This document shows, piece after piece, positions 5,301-64,000 of a DNA stretch of 64,000 nt (position 1 is its first letter; each line of letters opens with the position of its first letter). The stretch comes from Archangium lipolyticum. GTDB taxonomy: Bacteria > Myxococcota > Myxococcia > Myxococcales > Myxococcaceae. Position numbers and translations under genes: made by a program. Below the pieces are notes generated by a model. The model was not told where the DNA came from. It ran no database searches and saw only the letters and a program-made list of their open reading frames with translations. The DNA is taken from the NCBI RefSeq assembly GCF_024623785.1, contig NZ_JANKBZ010000012.1, forward strand, positions 248,001 through 312,000, given 5' to 3'.

Positions 5301-6086
5301 TCACTCGCCCCGCCACGTATCGGTGGGGTTGTTGGCCTTGAGCAGCTCCCACGCGGCGAGCGCGTCCACCACCCGCTCCAACTCATTGGGCAGGCCCCGG
5401 GCGCGATTGGAGCGCAGGTACTCCTCGGCGAAGGTGCGCAGCCTCATGTCGAGGAAGAGCCGCGCCAGCGACACCTCCGTCTGTCCGTAGAACTCCTCGA
5501 AGCGGATGCCGAAGCCGGACGGCTCGTCCTCCCGGCGGGGCCGCTGCTCGCGCACGATGCGGGCACGGGCCTCCACGGGGGCCGCGCCCTCCTCCAGCGA
5601 GAAGCGCACCCGTAGCTCGGTGTCCAGGGGCAGGAAGAAGGTGCTCTCCAGGAAGGCCCCACCCACGCTCACGTTGGCCGAGCGCAACGTGGCGGTGAAG
5701 CGCCGGGCGCCCTCCTCGTCGATCCACAGCTCGAAGCTCGTGGCGAGCCGCGCGCGGGGGAAGTGCCGGTGCTCCACCTCCTCCTGGGTGCCCACCTCGA
5801 TGATGGGGGAGTAGAAGCTCTTGGAGCCCGGGGGACGGGGGGGAAGAGCCGGCCGCGTGGCCAGGGGCGCGGGGGCTGGTGGGCGGCGGAACGGATCCAC
5901 CCGGGGAGCGGGCGCCGGGGGAGGCTCCACCCGCCGGGCCGGCTCGGGCCTCGGGGCCGGTGGACGAGGACTCTCCGCTGCCACCGGGGCCGCCTCCTTG
6001 GGAGGGGCCGTGGGAGGAGCCGCCTCCGGGCGCTGGGTGTCCGCTTCCTGGGTGGGAGCCTTCTTCCGGGAGCCCTTCCTGTCCAT
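5301..6086 (-). CDS. PilZ-domain protein with proline-rich N-terminus
   Basis: This 261-aa protein has a long Pro/Ala/Arg-rich low-complexity N-terminal half (about residues 1-95) and a C-terminal PilZ-type domain. The domain starts around EHRHFPRARLATSFELWI, with the RxxxR-like PRARL element, then NVSVGGAFLES (a variant of the D/NxSxxG motif) and a beta-barrel with VRFSLEEG and IVREQRP. PilZ domains bind cyclic di-GMP and act on motility, polysaccharide or gene control. I start at the ATG at 6086 because GGAGGAG sits 4-5 bp upstream; a longer reading adds six residues. A diguanylate cyclase is encoded at 16355-17446. Confidence 0.85.
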   Translation of the reverse strand: MDRKGSRKKAPTQEADTQRPEAAPPTAPPKEAAPVAAESPRPPAPRPEPARRVEPPPAPAPRVDPFRRPPAPAPLATRPALPPRPPGSKSFYSPIIEVGTQEEVEHRHFPRARLATSFELWIDEEGARRFTATLRSANVSVGGAFLESTFFLPLDTELRVRFSLEEGAAPVEARARIVREQRPRREDEPSGFGIRFEEFYGQTEVSLARLFLDMRLRTFAEEYLRSNRARGLPNELERVVDALAAWELLKANNPTDTWRGE

Positions 6087-6182: not shown

Positions 6183-7562
6183 ATGCTGGGAAACCTCCTG
6201 AAGCCGGAGTTCGAAGCGCTCATCGCAGCCAAGGACTGGAACGCGCTGCGCGATGCCTTCTCGGGCATGGATCCGACAGACGTGGCCGAGGTCCTCGAGG
6301 ACCTGCCCGCGGATGAGAGCGGCATCCTGTTCCGGCTGCTGCCGCGAGACACGGCGGCGCTCGTCTTCGAGTACCTGCCGCTGCACCAGCAGACGGAGCT
6401 CCTGGAGACGTTGGGGACCGGGCAGCTCAAGAACCTGCTGGACGAGATGGCGCCGGACGATCGCACGCGACTGCTCGAGGAGCTGCCGGCCGAGGTGACG
6501 AAGCGGCTGCTCACCACGCTGTCCCCCGAGCAGCTGAAGGTGGCCCGCAACCTGCTGGGCTACCCGGAGAAGAGCGCCGGCCGGTACATGACGCCGGAGT
6601 ACCTCACGCTGCCGGGCAATCTCACGGCGGGCGAGGCCCTCGCGTACGTGCGCGCCCACGGCCAGGGCCGCGAGACGCTGCACGTGCTCTACATCGTGGA
6701 CGAGAAGGGCCGGCTGCTGGACGACGTGCGGCTGGCCTCGCTGGTGCTGGCGGATCCGGGCACGCGGGTGACGGACATCCACGACCGGCAGCTGGTGAGC
6801 ATCCCGGCCACGGCGGACCGCGAGGAGTTCATCAGCATGTTCGAGAAGTACGACCGGGTGGCGCTGCCGGTGACGGACTCCCAGGGCGTGCTGGTGGGCA
6901 TCATCACCGTGGACGACGTGCTGGACGCGGCCGAGGAGGAGGCCACCGAGGACATCCAGCGCATCGGCGGTATGGAGGCCCTGGAGGCGCCGTACCTGGA
7001 CATCGGCATCACCGGCATGCTGCGCAAGCGCGTGGGGTGGCTCACGGTGCTCTTCGTGGGGCAGATGTTCACCGCCACGGCCATGGCCCACTACCAGGAC
7101 GCCATCGCCCAGGCGGTATTCCTCAGCGCCTTCGTGCCGCTCATCATCTCCTCGGGAGGCAACTCGGGCTCGCAGGCCACCTCGCTCATCATCCGCGCGC
7201 TGGCGGTGCGCGACGTGCACCTGAGCGACTGGTGGCGCGTGGCGGCGCGCGAGGTCGTCAGCGGCGTGGCGCTGGGTATCTTCCTGGGGCTGCTGGGCCT
7301 GCTGCGCATCCTGCTGTGGCCCCAGCACGAGGTCATCTACGGTCCCCACTTCGTCTGGGTGGGCGTGGCGGTGGGGCTGAGCGTGGTGGGAGTGGTGACG
7401 TTCGGCACGCTGTGCGGCTCGATGCTGCCCTTCCTGTTGCGGCGCTTCGGGTTGGATCCCGCCACCGCCTCGGCGCCCTTCGTATCCACGCTGGTGGACG
7501 TCACCGGCGTGGTCATCTACTTCACCGTGGTGACCCTCATGCTCACGGGCCGCGGGCTCTGA
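6183..7562 (+). CDS. mgtE: Magnesium channel/transporter MgtE
   Basis: MgtE is a gated Mg2+ channel of the inner membrane. The 459-aa protein has the N-terminal helical MgtE_N repeat domain (about residues 1-130, with repeated LPADE..LFRLLPRDTAALVFEYLP units), two CBS domains that sense Mg2+ (to about residue 255, including VLVGIITVDDVLD), and five hydrophobic segments in the C-terminal third (PLIISSGGNSGSQATSL is the conserved pore region). I start at ATG 6183; in-frame extension upstream is proline/arginine-rich and not MgtE-like. It converges with the kinase gene and overlaps its end by 20 bp. Confidence 0.95.
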   Translation: MLGNLLKPEFEALIAAKDWNALRDAFSGMDPTDVAEVLEDLPADESGILFRLLPRDTAALVFEYLPLHQQTELLETLGTGQLKNLLDEMAPDDRTRLLEELPAEVTKRLLTTLSPEQLKVARNLLGYPEKSAGRYMTPEYLTLPGNLTAGEALAYVRAHGQGRETLHVLYIVDEKGRLLDDVRLASLVLADPGTRVTDIHDRQLVSIPATADREEFISMFEKYDRVALPVTDSQGVLVGIITVDDVLDAAEEEATEDIQRIGGMEALEAPYLDIGITGMLRKRVGWLTVLFVGQMFTATAMAHYQDAIAQAVFLSAFVPLIISSGGNSGSQATSLIIRALAVRDVHLSDWWRVAAREVVSGVALGIFLGLLGLLRILLWPQHEVIYGPHFVWVGVAVGLSVVGVVTFGTLCGSMLPFLLRRFGLDPATASAPFVSTLVDVTGVVIYFTVVTLMLTGRGL

Positions 7563-58189: not shown

Positions 58190-58954
58190 CTACCGTTCCG
58201 CACCCTGGACGATGTGGATACCGAGCTCGACGAAGGGCCGGAGCAGCTCCTCGGGGACGCCCGGCTCGGTCGCCAGATGCGTCAGCCCGGTGGCCGGCCC
58301 GATGGCGAAGGGCGCCGCGGTGCCGAGCTTCTCGCGAGAGGCCAGGCCGACGATGCGATCCGCGCAGCCGAGCAGCACGCGGCGGACCTCCACTTCCTCG
58401 TAGTAGGGCCCGCTGATGCCACTGGTGGCATTGAGACTCCAGATGCCCAGGAAGCATACGTCGGCGGTGATGCGCCGGTAGGTCTCGATGACGTTGGCTC
58501 CGACCGCCACCATGGCCCGCCGGTCCAACGTGCCCCCCACCAGGACGACCTCGATGCCCGGGAAGCGGGCCAGCGCCGTGGCCACCGCCGGACAGTGGGT
58601 GATGAACGTCCCGGTGTGATCCGGCGGAATGGCATCCACCAGGTGCAAGGCCGTCGTCCCGCCGTCGAGGATGACGACCTGTCCTGGCGCGAGCAGCGTC
58701 GCGGCGGCGCGCGCCGTGGCGATCTTCCCCGGCACGCCCTGCTGCTGTCGCTCCTCGTACGTGGGCGCCACTGGAGAGCGCGCGACCGCCCCACCATGGA
58801 CCCGGCGCAGAAGATGGGCCTCGGCGAGCTCGTCCAGATCCCTGCGGATGGTGAAACCCGACACCCCGAGCAGCTCGCTCAGCTCCCCGGCGACGACACG
58901 TCCCTCGGAGCCCAGAATCTCGAGGATCCGGCGATGGCGCTCCTCCTTCAGCAT
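58190..58954 (-). CDS. DeoR-family transcriptional repressor
   Basis: This 254-aa regulator has the DeoR helix-turn-helix (RHRRILEILGSEGRVVAGELSELLGVSGFTIRRDLDELAEAHLLRRVHGGAV) and the C-terminal sugar-phosphate sensor domain (VVILDGGTTALHLVDAI, VVLVGGTLDRRAMVAVG, FLGIWSLNATSGISGPYYEEVEVRR). DeoR proteins usually respond to a phosphorylated sugar or nucleoside. Its start at 58954 overlaps the stop of the Nudix fusion gene by 7 bp, so both are co-expressed and the repressor probably controls that operon through the phased repeats upstream. Confidence 0.93.
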   Translation of the reverse strand: MLKEERHRRILEILGSEGRVVAGELSELLGVSGFTIRRDLDELAEAHLLRRVHGGAVARSPVAPTYEERQQQGVPGKIATARAAATLLAPGQVVILDGGTTALHLVDAIPPDHTGTFITHCPAVATALARFPGIEVVLVGGTLDRRAMVAVGANVIETYRRITADVCFLGIWSLNATSGISGPYYEEVEVRRVLLGCADRIVGLASREKLGTAAPFAIGPATGLTHLATEPGVPEELLRPFVELGIHIVQGAER

Positions 58955-59979
58955 CGCGAGCCGCCCATGACTCCGTTCCGCTCGGCCCACTGCAACAACA
59001 GGATCGTCTTCGCGTCGACGATCTCTCCGGTGTCGATCATCCGCAGGGCCTCGGTGAGCGGAAGCTCGAGGACCTCGATGTCCTCGCCTTCGGACGCGAG
59101 CCCTCCGCCGGTCGAGGAGCGAGCGTCACGGGTGTAGGGCGCGGCGAAGAAGTGCAGGCGCTCGGTGACCGAGCCCGGGCTCATGAAGACATCGAAGACG
59201 GGCCGCACCTCGCCGATGCGCACTCCCGTCTCCTCCTCGACCTCCCGCCGGATCGCCGCTTCGGGGTGCTCGCCATCGAGCAGCCCCGCGGGGGCCTCGA
59301 TGAGCATCCCGTCGGGGTGCCCGTTCACGTAGGCCGGCAACCGGAACTGGCGGGTGAGCAGCACCGTTCCCCGCGAGGCGTCATGGAGCAGGACGGTCGC
59401 CCCGTTGCCGCGGTCGTAGGCCTCCCGGCTCTGCTGGCTCCAGGTGCCATCCGAGCGCCGGTAGTCGAACGTCACCTTGCGCAGGACGTACCAGTTGGAG
59501 GAGAGGACCTGCACGCCGGTGATGCGCACGGCGTCGTTGCGCGAGGGCCCGTCCGAAGGGTCCCGGAAGCCTCCCGGCTCGCGCACCTGCCGCGGCGGCG
59601 TCTGTCCTCCTCCCCGTGGCAGCGCGTCGACTCCGAAGTACACCGCCCTGCCCCGAGCCCGGGCCAGGCTGACCATCTCGTCCGCCCCCGCCGAGGGGCC
59701 TCCGATGCGGAGCACGGCGTCGCAGCGCTCGATCAGCCGGCGGGCGATGGGATGGAAGATCTCGTCGAAGACGCGATCCCCGATGGCCCGGCTCCCGGCC
59801 AGTTCGATCAACGGAAGGGCCATCGCCTCGCCCGTCACCGGCAGGTGTCCCGCTCGGAAGACGTCGAGCGCGACCTCGTTCATCGCCCGCACGTTCGCGG
59901 CGATCTTCGCGGGATCATCCCCCGTTCCCGACCGATAGGGGCCGGCAACGAGCACCATCAGCGGCGCATGCTCTGTCAT
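58948..59979 (-). CDS. Fusion: nucleoside deoxyribosyltransferase-like domain + NudK-like Nudix hydrolase
   Basis: This 343-aa protein joins two domains. Residues 8-120 resemble nucleoside 2-deoxyribosyltransferase/DUF4406 proteins: VLVAGPYRSGTG, then ANVRAMNEVALDVFRAGH, and GGPSAGADEMVSLARARG with a candidate catalytic Glu101. Residues 160-335 are a NudK-type Nudix hydrolase: SREAYDRGNGATVLL, TRQFRLPAYVNGHPDGMLIE, the Nudix box AGLLDGE...REVEEETGV (about 231-253) and FMSPGSVTERLHFF. NudK enzymes cleave GDP-mannose and similar nucleotide sugars. The start is ATG 59979; a longer frame to 60084 adds 35 unlikely residues. The product may break down a nucleotide or nucleotide sugar in two steps. 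Confidence 0.87.
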   Translation of the reverse strand: MTEHAPLMVLVAGPYRSGTGDDPAKIAANVRAMNEVALDVFRAGHLPVTGEAMALPLIELAGSRAIGDRVFDEIFHPIARRLIERCDAVLRIGGPSAGADEMVSLARARGRAVYFGVDALPRGGGQTPPRQVREPGGFRDPSDGPSRNDAVRITGVQVLSSNWYVLRKVTFDYRRSDGTWSQQSREAYDRGNGATVLLHDASRGTVLLTRQFRLPAYVNGHPDGMLIEAPAGLLDGEHPEAAIRREVEEETGVRIGEVRPVFDVFMSPGSVTERLHFFAAPYTRDARSSTGGGLASEGEDIEVLELPLTEALRMIDTGEIVDAKTILLLQWAERNGVMGGSRC

Positions 59980-60010
59980 GGCTCGACAAAGTAGCAAGAA
60001 CACAGGCAGC

Positions 60011-60050
60011 TTCGCAACAAAAAGCACGGATATGCACAAGTTCGCACAAC
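60011..60050 (-). promoter_or_regulatory. Four 10-bp phased repeats, candidate DeoR operator
   Basis: On the plus strand the decamers TTCGCAACAA, AAAGCACGGA, TATGCACAAG and TTCGCACAAC follow each other without gaps (60011-60050). All share GCA at positions 4-6; the outer two match in 8 of 10 positions. They lie 32-71 bp before the fusion gene start, a normal repressor position. Confidence 0.5.
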
Positions 60051-60272
60051 ACCCCTGCCCCGTACGACCCTGAAGATCTGACAAATGGCGGAGGAGTGGC
60101 TCCAGACGAAGGCACTGTTCGCGGCCCTCGTCTGGATCTCTCGCTTCAAATCCAGCACCGCGGGGCGCGCTACCAGGCGGGTAAGGTGGCCTGATTGCAT
60201 CTGAAACGAGATGGCGGAGGGTGGAGGGTGGCTTCGCTCACAAACTCCAGTCGACCCTTTAGAGTCACTCGG

Positions 60273-61088
60273 ATGACGACACGTGAACGCACAGTGAGAA
60301 AGGGACCCTTCCCTATCAGGGTCCGCATCCTCGAAGTCCTGCGGACGGCTCGCCTCGCTCCGAACATGGTGCGAGTGACGCTCGGCGGAAAGGACCTGGA
60401 CGGCTTCCGGAGCGAGGGCGCGGATGACCATGTGCGGTTGTTCTTCCCTGCCCCGGGAGAAAGGATGCCAGTCGTTCCGACGGGGATGGGGCCGAGGGGA
60501 TTGGAGTTTCCACCGGACAAACCGCGTCCGGCGCTTCGCGACTACACGCCCCGGCGCCATGACCCTGTCGCGGGAGAGTTGGACATCGATTTCGTGATCC
60601 ACGGCTCGGGCCCTGGCTCCACGTGGGCCGCGCAGGCGAAGCCGGGCGACATGCTGGGCGTGGCCGGTCCACGCGGCTCGCTGGTGGTCACCTACGATTT
60701 CGACTGGTACCTCTTCTTCGGCGACGAGACCGCGCTTCCGGCACTTGCCCGCAGGCTCGAGGAGTTGCCCGCGGGCGCACGGGCCATCGCGTTCGTCGAA
60801 GTCGCCGACGCCTCCGCGAGGGTGCCGCTCCAGAGTCAGGCCAATCTGGAGCTGACCTGGCTGTACAGGGAGGGCGCGCGGCCCGGCACCACGAACCAGC
60901 TGGAGAAGGCCGTGCGAGACCTGGCGTTCCCTCCGGGGGACTACTTCGCGTGGGGCGCGGGCGAATCCACTGTCATGCGGACGCTGCGTCTACACCTGAC
61001 CAACGAGCGCGGCATCAACAAGGCCTGGATGAGCGTCACCGGCTATTGGAAGCGGGGCGTGTCGGACCACGACCACGACGAGGAGTGA
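60273..61088 (+). CDS. Siderophore-interacting protein (FAD-dependent ferric reductase)
   Basis: This 271-aa protein belongs to the SIP/ViuB family, which reduces ferric siderophores or heme-bound iron in the cytoplasm with FAD and NAD(P)H. It has the FAD-binding part (MVRVTLGGKDLDGF, RPALRDYTPRRHDPVAGELDIDFVIHG with the R-x-Y-T motif, GDMLGVAGPRGSL) and the C-terminal part (WYLFFGDETALPALARRLEEL, FAWGAGESTVMRTLRLHL, SVTGYWKRG). I start at ATG 60273; an in-frame TTG at 60195 is an alternative. It converges on hmuV, 33 bp away, and fits an iron-supply block. Confidence 0.92.
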   Translation: MTTRERTVRKGPFPIRVRILEVLRTARLAPNMVRVTLGGKDLDGFRSEGADDHVRLFFPAPGERMPVVPTGMGPRGLEFPPDKPRPALRDYTPRRHDPVAGELDIDFVIHGSGPGSTWAAQAKPGDMLGVAGPRGSLVVTYDFDWYLFFGDETALPALARRLEELPAGARAIAFVEVADASARVPLQSQANLELTWLYREGARPGTTNQLEKAVRDLAFPPGDYFAWGAGESTVMRTLRLHLTNERGINKAWMSVTGYWKRGVSDHDHDEE

Positions 61089-61121
61089 ATCGAAGTGGCC
61101 CTCGCGGGCCACGGGGATTCA

Positions 61122-61940
61122 TCAGCCCTGTTTCAGGAGGGCGCCGGACGAACGCTCTCCTGAAACGATGATCGGGCAATCCAGCCAGGGATGGGGAAGC
61201 GTGGTCATCGGGTAGTCGAAAGCCCGGCTGAGGATGTCCGTCGTCATGACGGAGCGAGGCTCCCCGAATGCAATGGCTTTCCGCTCGGCGAGCACCAGGA
61301 CCTTGTCAGCGTATTGGGCGACAAGATTCAGGTCATGGAGGATGAGGAGCGCCGCGACACCTTCCCGGGTCGACTCCTTCACGAGCTGCAAGGCCTTGTG
61401 CTGATGGGCGATGTCCAGACTGCTCGTGGGCTCATCCATCAGGAGCAACCGGTTTCCAGCGGTGTCATGAATCTGGGCGAGCGCACGCGCGAGGTGGACA
61501 CGCTGCTGCTCTCCCCCCGAGAGCGTCAGGTAGTTGCGCGCCTCGTACCCCGCGAGCCCGACCCGCGCCAGGCAGGCGCGAGCGATCCGCACGTCCTCCC
61601 GCGACTCCGGGCGGTGCTGCTGGTGGGGGATCCTCCCCAGCATCACGACCTCCAGGGCCTCATAGGCGAACTGGAGGTTCGTGGTCTGGGGCAACACGGC
61701 CCGTTTCCGGGCGAGCTCCGTCCGCGAGCTGCTGCCCAGGGGGGAGCCGAAGGCGAGCACCTCACCACTCTGGCTGCGCAGCTCTCCCGTCAGGTGTTTG
61801 AAGAGCGTGCTCTTTCCCGCCCCATTGCGTCCGATGACCACCAGCAGCTCGCCGGGCTCCAGGGTCAGGTGGATGCCGGACAGGAGCCGCGTCCCGCCGA
61901 GCTGGCAATGGAGGTCGCGGACTTCGAGTACCGGGTTCAT
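61122..61940 (-). CDS. hmuV: Heme ABC transporter ATP-binding protein HmuV
   Basis: HmuV powers heme import through HmuU. The 272-aa protein has Walker A GRNGAGKST, the Q-loop region LPQTTNLQFAYEALEVVMLGR, the signature LSGGEQQRVHLARALAQI, Walker B LLLMDEPTSSLD and the switch His in LILHDLNLVAQYAD. The insertion (AGNRLLLMDEP) before Walker B is typical of HmuV. Its ATG overlaps the hmuU stop (ATGA). It is the last gene of hmuTUV. Confidence 0.95.
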   Translation of the reverse strand: MNPVLEVRDLHCQLGGTRLLSGIHLTLEPGELLVVIGRNGAGKSTLFKHLTGELRSQSGEVLAFGSPLGSSSRTELARKRAVLPQTTNLQFAYEALEVVMLGRIPHQQHRPESREDVRIARACLARVGLAGYEARNYLTLSGGEQQRVHLARALAQIHDTAGNRLLLMDEPTSSLDIAHQHKALQLVKESTREGVAALLILHDLNLVAQYADKVLVLAERKAIAFGEPRSVMTTDILSRAFDYPMTTLPHPWLDCPIIVSGERSSGALLKQG

Positions 61941-63016
61941 AGGACGTGGGTCCTTCGCTGCCGCAAGAGCAGGTACAGGAAGAAGGGCGCACCGGCGAGC
62001 GCTGTCACGATGCCAATGGGCAACTCGGAAGGAACCACGACGGTGCGGGCGATCAGATCCGCGAGGACCAGGAGCGCGGCGCCCAGGAGCGCCGAGAGGG
62101 GCAACAGGACGCGGTGGTTGGGACCGAGCCACAGCCGGATGAGATGGGGAACCACGAGCCCGATGAAACTGATCATCCCCGAGACGGCCACTGCCGCCCC
62201 CACGCCCAGGGCCACGAACGCCACGATCTTCCACTTGGTGCGCTCCACCGAGATGCCCAGGTGATGCGCGTTCGCCTCGCCCAGGAGGAGGGCATTGAGT
62301 GGGTTCGCGAGAAACAGCATGCCCACGGCGCAGATCAGCACCAGGGGCGTGATGGTGGAGACCAGGGGCCACGTCGCTCCCGTGAGCGAGCCAAGCTGCC
62401 AGAAGGTGAGGGTCCGCAGCTGATCGTCGGTCGAGAGATAGGTGAAGAGGCCCGTTCCGGACACGCAGAGCGCGTTGATGGCGACTCCGCACAAGAGCAT
62501 CATCGCGACGTTGGTCTTCCCGTTCTCCTGGGCCAGTGAAGCGATGAGGAGGATGGCCACGAGGCTTCCGGCGAACGCCGCTACCGGAAGGGTGTAGAAG
62601 CCGAGGAGCTGGAGCTTGAGGACCGTGACGGCTGACACGGCCAACGAGGCTCCGCCCGATACCCCGAGGAGCCCGGGGTCGGCGAGCGGATTGCGGAAGA
62701 GGCCCTGGAGGGCCACGCCCGCCACGGAGAGCGCGGCCCCGACCAGGACCCCCAGCAGGACGCGCGGCAGGCGGATGGCGTAGAGGACCGCCGCCTGCTG
62801 CTCCGTGAACTCGGTCAATGGAGGCAGACCGACCTGCTCGAGAAGGATGGAGAGCACCTGGGCGGGGGTGATGGGGACGGCCCCGATCCCCAGGGAGGCC
62901 ACGACGCAGAGCAGCAGGAGCGGTCCGAGGACGAGCAGCCCCTTCGTCCTCTTGCCGAGGGCCGTCGTCACGTACTCGCCGGGCTGCGAGATGCGTTCAC
63001 TGCTGAGGCTTGGCAT
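61937..63016 (-). CDS. hmuU: Heme ABC transporter permease HmuU
   Basis: This 359-aa FecCD-family permease has about ten membrane spans. Family motifs are LPRVLLGVLVGAALSVAGVALQGLFRNPLADPGLLGVSGGASL near the N-terminus and GLVVPHLIRLWLGPNHRVLLPLSALLGA and ELPIGIVTALAGAPFFLYLL near the end. It forms the channel for heme moved by HmuT and HmuV. The start overlaps the hmuT end by 20 bp. A heme permease is favoured over a ferric-siderophore one by gene order and the HmuT-like binding protein. Confidence 0.93.
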   Translation of the reverse strand: MPSLSSERISQPGEYVTTALGKRTKGLLVLGPLLLLCVVASLGIGAVPITPAQVLSILLEQVGLPPLTEFTEQQAAVLYAIRLPRVLLGVLVGAALSVAGVALQGLFRNPLADPGLLGVSGGASLAVSAVTVLKLQLLGFYTLPVAAFAGSLVAILLIASLAQENGKTNVAMMLLCGVAINALCVSGTGLFTYLSTDDQLRTLTFWQLGSLTGATWPLVSTITPLVLICAVGMLFLANPLNALLLGEANAHHLGISVERTKWKIVAFVALGVGAAVAVSGMISFIGLVVPHLIRLWLGPNHRVLLPLSALLGAALLVLADLIARTVVVPSELPIGIVTALAGAPFFLYLLLRQRRTHVL

Positions 63017-63893
63017 GGATGGCCGTGAAGATCGCGTCAGCGAATTGGGGGAAGCGGGGACCGACCCAGCGGATGCTGTTGTCCACGGCCAGGATCTTCT
63101 TGTTCCGGCCCGCTGGGGTCAGGGCCACGCCCGGGAGCTTCAGGGCGCCGTCGACTCCGCCCACCGCTTCGAGACCCCGGTTCAACATGATGATCGCATC
63201 GGGGGACGCGAGCACCATCCCCTCCGCCGTCAGCGCCTTGGTTCCCGTGGTGAAGTCCGCGGCGTTCTGACCTCCCGCCAGCTCGATGAGCACGTGGACG
63301 CCCGTGTCCTTCCCGTAGACGAAGGCTTCTCCAGGACCATGGGCGTAGAGGAAGAGGATCCGCGGCTTCTTCTTCAACGCGGCGCTCTTCCTTCCCAGCT
63401 CCGCGCGCTGCCTGTCGAGCTCCTGGGTCATCCGCTTCCCGGCCTCCTGGACGTTGAAGAGCCGCGCGACGACCTCGATGCGCCTCTTCAAGCCGTCGAT
63501 CCCATCCTTGGCGGAGTTCTCGAGGATCAAGACGGGAATCCTGGCGCTCCGCAGCTGCGAGGCGGTGGCGGGCGTCAGGTTCTCCTCCGTCGCGAGAACG
63601 AGGTCCGGCTTCAGGCTGACGATGCCCTCGACGCTGGGATGGTAGGGGTGACCGACCTTGGCGATCTTCTCCTGCTCGGGAGGGTAGGTGCCGCCCACGT
63701 CGGTTCCGACGATGGCGTCCCCCTTGCCGAGTCCGAACAGGATCTCCACCAGCGAGGAGTTGACCGCGACCACCCGCTTCGGCGGGCCCATCTCCACCGT
63801 CTGTCCGTCGACTCCCTTGAACTGCTCCGCATGGACGAGGGAGCTCACGAGAACGGAACTCATGAGCAACAACGAGAAGGCTCGACTCCTCAT
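62997..63893 (-). CDS. hmuT: Heme-binding periplasmic protein HmuT
   Basis: This 298-aa protein has a Sec signal peptide (SLLLMSSVLVSSLVHA) and the class III binding-protein fold: KRVVAVNSSLVEILFGLGKGDAIVG, KVGHPYHPSVEGIVSLKPDLVLATEE and ILFLYAHGPGEAFVYGKDTG are HmuT/ChuT-type stretches. It carries heme from the outer-membrane receptor to HmuUV. The start at 63893 has GGAG upstream; an in-frame frame continues to 63983 through the promoter. It is the first gene of the operon, with a Fur-box-like site 55 bp upstream. The TonB receptor gene is not in the window. Confidence 0.93.
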   Translation of the reverse strand: MRSRAFSLLLMSSVLVSSLVHAEQFKGVDGQTVEMGPPKRVVAVNSSLVEILFGLGKGDAIVGTDVGGTYPPEQEKIAKVGHPYHPSVEGIVSLKPDLVLATEENLTPATASQLRSARIPVLILENSAKDGIDGLKRRIEVVARLFNVQEAGKRMTQELDRQRAELGRKSAALKKKPRILFLYAHGPGEAFVYGKDTGVHVLIELAGGQNAADFTTGTKALTAEGMVLASPDAIIMLNRGLEAVGGVDGALKLPGVALTPAGRNKKILAVDNSIRWVGPRFPQFADAIFTAIHAKPQQ

Positions 63894-63947
63894 GACAACT
63901 CCACTCCATCCCAAGAGGCCACCGGAATTCTCTTTTACTGAGGTCTT

Positions 63948-63966
63948 GAGTTTGAGAATCAAAATC
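63948..63966 (-). promoter_or_regulatory. Fur-box-like operator of hmuTUV
   Basis: On the minus strand the 19-mer GATTTTGATTCTCAAACTC agrees with the Fur consensus in 12 of 19 positions and contains the inverted repeat TTTGA-N3-TCAAA. It lies in a short AT-rich stretch 55-73 bp upstream of the hmuT start. Repression by Fur with iron is the expected role. Confidence 0.65.
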
Positions 63967-64000
63967 AAAAACCACAGAGACATCCCACTGTCGCGAGGCA

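Follow-up and report, generated by a model that had tools for sequence, protein, structure and literature searches.

A fused NDT-fold and NudK-type Nudix protein of Archangium lipolyticum with an adjoining DeoR-family regulator and a putative decamer operator

The window, a 64,000-nucleotide stretch of an Archangium lipolyticum contig, encodes a protein in which a domain with the fold of nucleoside 2-deoxyribosyltransferases (NDTs) is joined to a NudK-type Nudix hydrolase. A gene for a DeoR-family regulator overlaps its end, and an array of phased decamers precedes it. The parts are ordinary but their combination is unusual and recurrent: NudK, apparently an intact enzyme, goes with an NDT-fold partner that lacks the catalytic pair of NDTs, and a dedicated DeoR protein with a putative operator accompanies both. 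We consider it probable, at roughly 60%, that together they form a dedicated, self-regulated unit for nucleotide-sugar breakdown, in which NudK works with a non-canonical NDT-fold partner and expression is released by a sugar phosphate acting on DeoR. We found no description of this gene set in the open-licence literature, a coverage outside which most subscription papers fall.

An intact NudK half and an NDT-fold half without the catalytic pair

The fusion gene (58948-59979, minus strand, 343 residues) joins an NDT-fold, DUF4406/DUF1937-like domain to a NudK-type Nudix domain. All six orthologues are compatible with its ATG at 59979. An alternative TTG start at 60084, which would give 378 residues, is unnecessary because the ATG is common to the orthologues, and it was rejected on that ground and on the position of the decamer array between the two starts. 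The NDT-fold domain comprises residues 1-125 (59605-59979), as supported by a structure model (pLDDT 91), structural matches and alignment columns. A linker predicted with low confidence (residues 126-148, 59536-59604) leads to the Nudix domain (residues 149-338, 58966-59535). The original prediction that two such domains share one protein was borne out by matches to NudK profiles and by the NDT-fold model; structure prediction, suggested as a check, gave an NDT fold for the N-terminal half and a NudK-like fold for the Nudix half.

The Nudix half matches the NudK profile NF011585 with E=1e-63. The score of the fusion protein, 214.4 bits, is below the NudK equivalog cut-off of 234, and the broader profile TIGR00052 is reached at 139.4 bits, above its cut-off of 79.55. 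Taken from the model of the whole protein, this half resembles E. coli GDP-mannose hydrolase (Z 26.5, 50% identity) and ADP-ribose pyrophosphatases (Z about 22; 29% identity to ADP-ribose diphosphatase). Its Nudix box, GX4EX7REX2EEXGU (residues 232-253, 59221-59286), is read directly from the sequence and is as short as that of E. coli NudK (PMC5389931). An alignment of 92 sequences gave no sign that catalytic residues had been lost: E246, E249 and E250 are invariant across the 92 NudK rows, D300, the equivalent of D152, is present in 84 of them, and all catalytic columns of E. coli NudK, including the equivalents of E100 and D152, are retained. Judged by its residues, the NudK half appears to be an intact enzyme, the substrate specificity of which cannot be read from the sequence. 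E. coli NudK (YffH), a GDP-mannose pyrophosphatase, thus shares the fold, the shortened box and the E100 and D152 positions with the window protein, but has neither the NDT-fold fusion nor a dedicated adjacent DeoR gene, and the window protein stays under the equivalog cut-off.

The N-terminal half reached no Pfam family at cut-off. The gathering scores of DUF4406 and DUF1937 were not attained, the best being a DUF1937 match of 20.4 bits, in a relative, against 23; NCBI names the plasmid relatives of the domain DUF4406. Modelled alone, the domain was predicted with a pLDDT of 91, and the model matched 1t1j (Z 13.2), NDTs (Z 10-11), and DNPH1 and MilB (Z 9-10), with rmsd values of 2.2-3.0 over about 105 residues for several NDTs. 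A profile of the family found one weak match among PDB sequences, again 1t1j (E=0.23), and alignment of the family with the NDT protein of locus L172 by hhalign was not significant. The domain shares with the NDT, DNPH1 and MilB superfamily, DUF1937 (1t1j) and DUF4406 its fold, a GP loop after strand 1 and an S-x-G motif before the last helix.

Differences from this superfamily lie at the active site, where the original prediction had proposed a deoxyribosyltransferase-like domain with Glu101 as its candidate catalytic residue. Codons D100-E101-M102 occupy 59674-59682 and codon A79 occupies 59743-59745, both on the minus strand. In an alignment of 47 NDT-fold relatives, position 101 is taken by E, R, L, Q, N, D or M, with Glu in 14, and this variability rules out Glu101 as the nucleophile. 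The canonical catalytic Glu falls on column 102, which holds M in 34 relatives, D in 12 and E in one, and the canonical Asp on column 79, which holds A in 44 and D in three canonical members; the window protein has Met102 and Ala79. For this half, the absence of catalytic residues that had been named beforehand as refuting is therefore observed, and a canonical deoxyribosyltransferase is not supported. These two columns were assigned from gap-free profile alignments with two canonical-Glu proteins (from L180 and L170) and from a joint alignment. Eight residues, R16, T19, H45, E51, R91, S96, G98 and D100, are strictly invariant in all 47 relatives, and five of them (R16, T19, H45, E51 and D100) are specific to the family of the window domain. 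Given these invariant residues and the missing pair, the pocket appears to be under strong constraint, with the NDT mechanism not available as such.

The regulator and the decamer array

The DeoR-family gene (58190-58954, minus strand, 254 residues) matches PF00455 (E=1e-30) and PF08220 (E=3e-16), with HTH_DeoR and DeoRC both above the Pfam cut-off. As had been predicted, it adjoins the fusion gene with a 7-bp overlap (58948-58954, ATGCTGA). In a midpoint-rooted tree with long deep branches, three deep DeoR lineages accompany NDT-fold/NudK enzymes: one unites the window group with divergently oriented actinobacterial and proteobacterial genes, and the others are a Streptomyces same-strand group and a Hymenobacter group. 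This repeated pairing suggests that the inducer would be a sugar phosphate, as is typical of DeoR ligands.

Two genomes that carry the fusion (G033 and G032) have their DeoR gene elsewhere, and the orphan protein is 96% identical to the window DeoR. In G033 (L148, around 6757-6850) a fragment of the decamer array, continuous with the final bases of the fusion gene, stands before the orphan gene; in G032 (L149, around 5940-6000) a smaller remnant lies upstream. These sequences indicate that the orphan is a decayed second copy and the G033 junction a deletion scar. Separately, a DeoR paralogue (47% identical) in L157, upstream of 6819 on the minus strand, also has upstream GCAC decamers, and its neighbours are a HAD-type phosphatase-like gene and an MFS-like gene.

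Four decamers had been pointed out as a natural operator candidate. They are present at 60013-60052 (plus strand), with GCA in phase at 60014, 60024, 60034 and 60044; their distance from the fusion gene needed correction, as they lie 34-73 bp before the ATG rather than 32-71. A fifth in-phase GCA stands at 59994. Five in-phase TGC within 90 bp were reached in none of 2,000 dinucleotide shuffles, and the version of the test that admits any trimer gave 0 of 500. All seven fusion loci have in common an upstream block (59983-60049, minus strand) amid otherwise unalignable DNA, and the decamer island is the sole conserved DNA of the seven aligned upstream regions. A sequence model of the array found one strong site in each genome carrying the fusion, always before the fusion. 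It gave no second strong site in the same genomes that would point to a wider regulon, the best extra match (E=0.07) being the DeoR remnant in G033, and no strong site in three genomes of the same genus without fusion and DeoR.

Divergent DeoR genes of Pantoea, Duffyella, Phyllobacterium and Actinomycetota are preceded by decamers that follow the same rule, as in Duffyella, where the units read TGCACGATAT TGCTTGTGTT TGCACGATTA TGCGCACT. GCA pairs spaced by 10, 20 or 30 bp number 28 in 16 regions (shuffle mean 2.5, maximum 11 in 1,000), a count from regions that include relatives, so that they are not 16 independent tests, and for a motif picked after the window had been seen. The stronger test is the transfer of the motif: a decamer matrix trained on non-myxobacterial regions only, its seed picked by eye among non-myxobacterial sites, gave its top rank among 127,942 window positions to the window array, and in each of the six other fusion loci it likewise placed the array first. 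Conservation and motif transfer bear out the array as a putative operator; it is likely that of the DeoR protein, and the decamers are, on sequence grounds, the best-supported part of the gene unit.

Direct repeats of 10-11 bp have been predicted for four groups of the DeoR-family RhaR regulators (PMC3870299). The window DeoR shares with these local sugar repressors HTH_DeoR, DeoRC and, in its putative operator, direct repeats of about 10 bp. Unlike them, it sits with a NudK/NDT-fold pair and not in a sugar uptake or catabolism operon, and its decamers number four or more. At Streptomyces-type same-strand DeoR genes (L049, L059, L062, L069 and L126) another conserved site lies upstream, in which TGTTCATTCGAACA comes before GTGTTAGAAA.

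Distribution of the gene set

The full fusion was found in 7 of 96 genomes of the family Myxococcaceae, one of which matches a Hyalangium versicolor contig. The NDT-fold domain occurs in 12 of 195 Myxococcota genomes, all in the window's family, seven times fused and five times alone; no DeoR or NudK gene adjoins the five lone genes. In a tree of the domain the fused clade is sister to Streptomyces-type genes (99/92), and the unfused genes of myxobacteria are placed elsewhere.

A search of genome neighbourhoods, proposed together with the view that repeats and gene pair should be conserved in relatives, found both conserved and the gene set recurring across phyla, mostly as unfused neighbours. 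NDT-fold and NudK genes lie beside DeoR in Streptomyces, Kitasatospora, Micromonospora, Pantoea, Duffyella and Hymenobacter, in varying gene orders and strands, so that the unfused set spans Actinomycetota, Gammaproteobacteria and Bacteroidota. In Actinomycetota the two enzymes are encoded by neighbouring but distinct genes, which lie in different frames and overlap at their ends in several loci; DeoR is mostly in front or divergent. The fusion may have arisen by the joining of two such overlapping genes. In locus L123 of Streptomyces sp. t39 (between 5740 and 6025), all that is left of an NDT-fold gene between DeoR and NudK is a short piece of its start.

Plasmids of Pantoea At-9b, Duffyella and two Hymenobacter carry a divergent DeoR gene followed by NudK and the NDT-fold gene; two Phyllobacterium plasmids and that of Pantoea SOD02 pair DeoR with the NDT-fold gene alone, and a Niallia plasmid has NUDIX and NDT-fold genes with a MerR regulator. 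By annotation or homology search, DeoR is adjacent in 10 of 13 inspected plasmid loci, the exceptions being Niallia, Paenibacillus and Gemmatirosa. Streptomyces plasmid triplets annotated DeoR / DUF4406 / NUDIX are these same three genes, unfused; they differ in the DeoR protein, which groups with another of the deep lineages, and in the site upstream of its gene (TGTTCATTCGAACA). The NDT-fold partner is not obligatory, as many actinobacterial NudK genes have an adjacent DeoR gene and no NDT-fold gene. Clustering of the genes around the loci revealed no larger pathway cluster and nothing else conserved, and phage records held no match that would indicate a phage origin. In the window itself, the neighbouring divergent gene codes for a siderophore-interacting protein, and past it genes resembling iron-siderophore ABC uptake were seen by eye on the opposite strand (60274-63983).

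The proposed breakdown unit and its alternatives

As the same gene set recurs unfused in distant bacteria, we regard it as a real small pathway, and this recurrent linkage makes it more likely that the two enzymes act jointly, as we infer. DeoR would bind the phased decamers of TGCAC type immediately upstream of the operon and keep the operon down until a sugar phosphate, probably one produced in this pathway, occupies its DeoRC domain; synthesis of the fusion protein, and of DeoR along with it, would follow. The NudK half would cleave the pyrophosphate of a nucleotide sugar of the GDP-mannose or ADP-ribose type to a nucleoside monophosphate and a sugar phosphate, and the NDT-fold half would act on, or hold, the same substrate or the nucleotide product by a route other than the canonical Glu/Asp mechanism.

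For the enzymes, three other readings have to be weighed. It is possible, although we favour it less, that the NDT-fold half is a non-catalytic domain which binds a nucleotide and senses or channels the ligand to tune NudK. Such a role would suit a domain that has lost the catalytic pair while keeping eight other residues strictly conserved, and inactive versions of the TIR-DrHyd-SLOG class bind nucleotides as sensors (review, PMC9503650), but in Phyllobacterium and Pantoea SOD02 the gene stands by itself next to DeoR, with no NudK gene, an arrangement that fits an enzyme better than an allosteric subunit. We think it unlikely that the half is active as an NDT or a DNPH1-type N-glycosidase and, by means of an acidic residue near 101, cleaves the nucleotide released by NudK: the predicted NDT, DNPH1 and MilB fold, the D or E at column 102 in 13 of the 47 family members and the invariant D100 next to the canonical position speak for it, whereas the window clade places Met and Ala in the Glu and Asp columns of a gap-free alignment, and Glu at 101 is a minority state. 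It is equally unlikely that the unit as a whole serves NAD/ADP-ribose turnover, the Nudix half being an ADP-ribose pyrophosphatase and its partner handling ADP-ribose derivatives. DrHyd-class domains do work in NAD/ADPr networks (PMC9503650) and ADP-ribose pyrophosphatases are among the structural matches of the Nudix half, yet its identity to the GDP-mannose hydrolase is higher, and no further gene family recurs nearby.

The repeats, for their part, might be a mere promoter or bent-DNA element and not a DeoR site, since they stand where a promoter is expected and their A-rich spacers alternate with GCA. This reading is improbable: the decamer rule also precedes related DeoR genes in other phyla, and the full array lies solely at the fusion in the genomes searched. 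Beyond the breakdown unit that we favour, we raise tentatively that the NDT-fold partner acts on nucleotides or nucleotide sugars as an enzyme of a new class, with R16, T19, H45, E51 and D100 as its active site instead of the Glu/Asp pair, working with NudK in a breakdown pathway of several phyla for which DeoR regulators were recruited at least three times.

Proteins of this family labelled deoxyribosyltransferase-like or DUF4406 should be read with caution, as the catalytic pair is missing. The same applies to relatives called NUDIX hydrolase for which an NDT-fold match alone was found, such as the Pantoea proteins at L182 (4004-4363) and L183 (4022-4381). The gene set offers a testable combination of regulator, operator and enzyme for a branch of Nudix hydrolases with an unclear physiological role, and the ligand of DeoR would point to the substrate.
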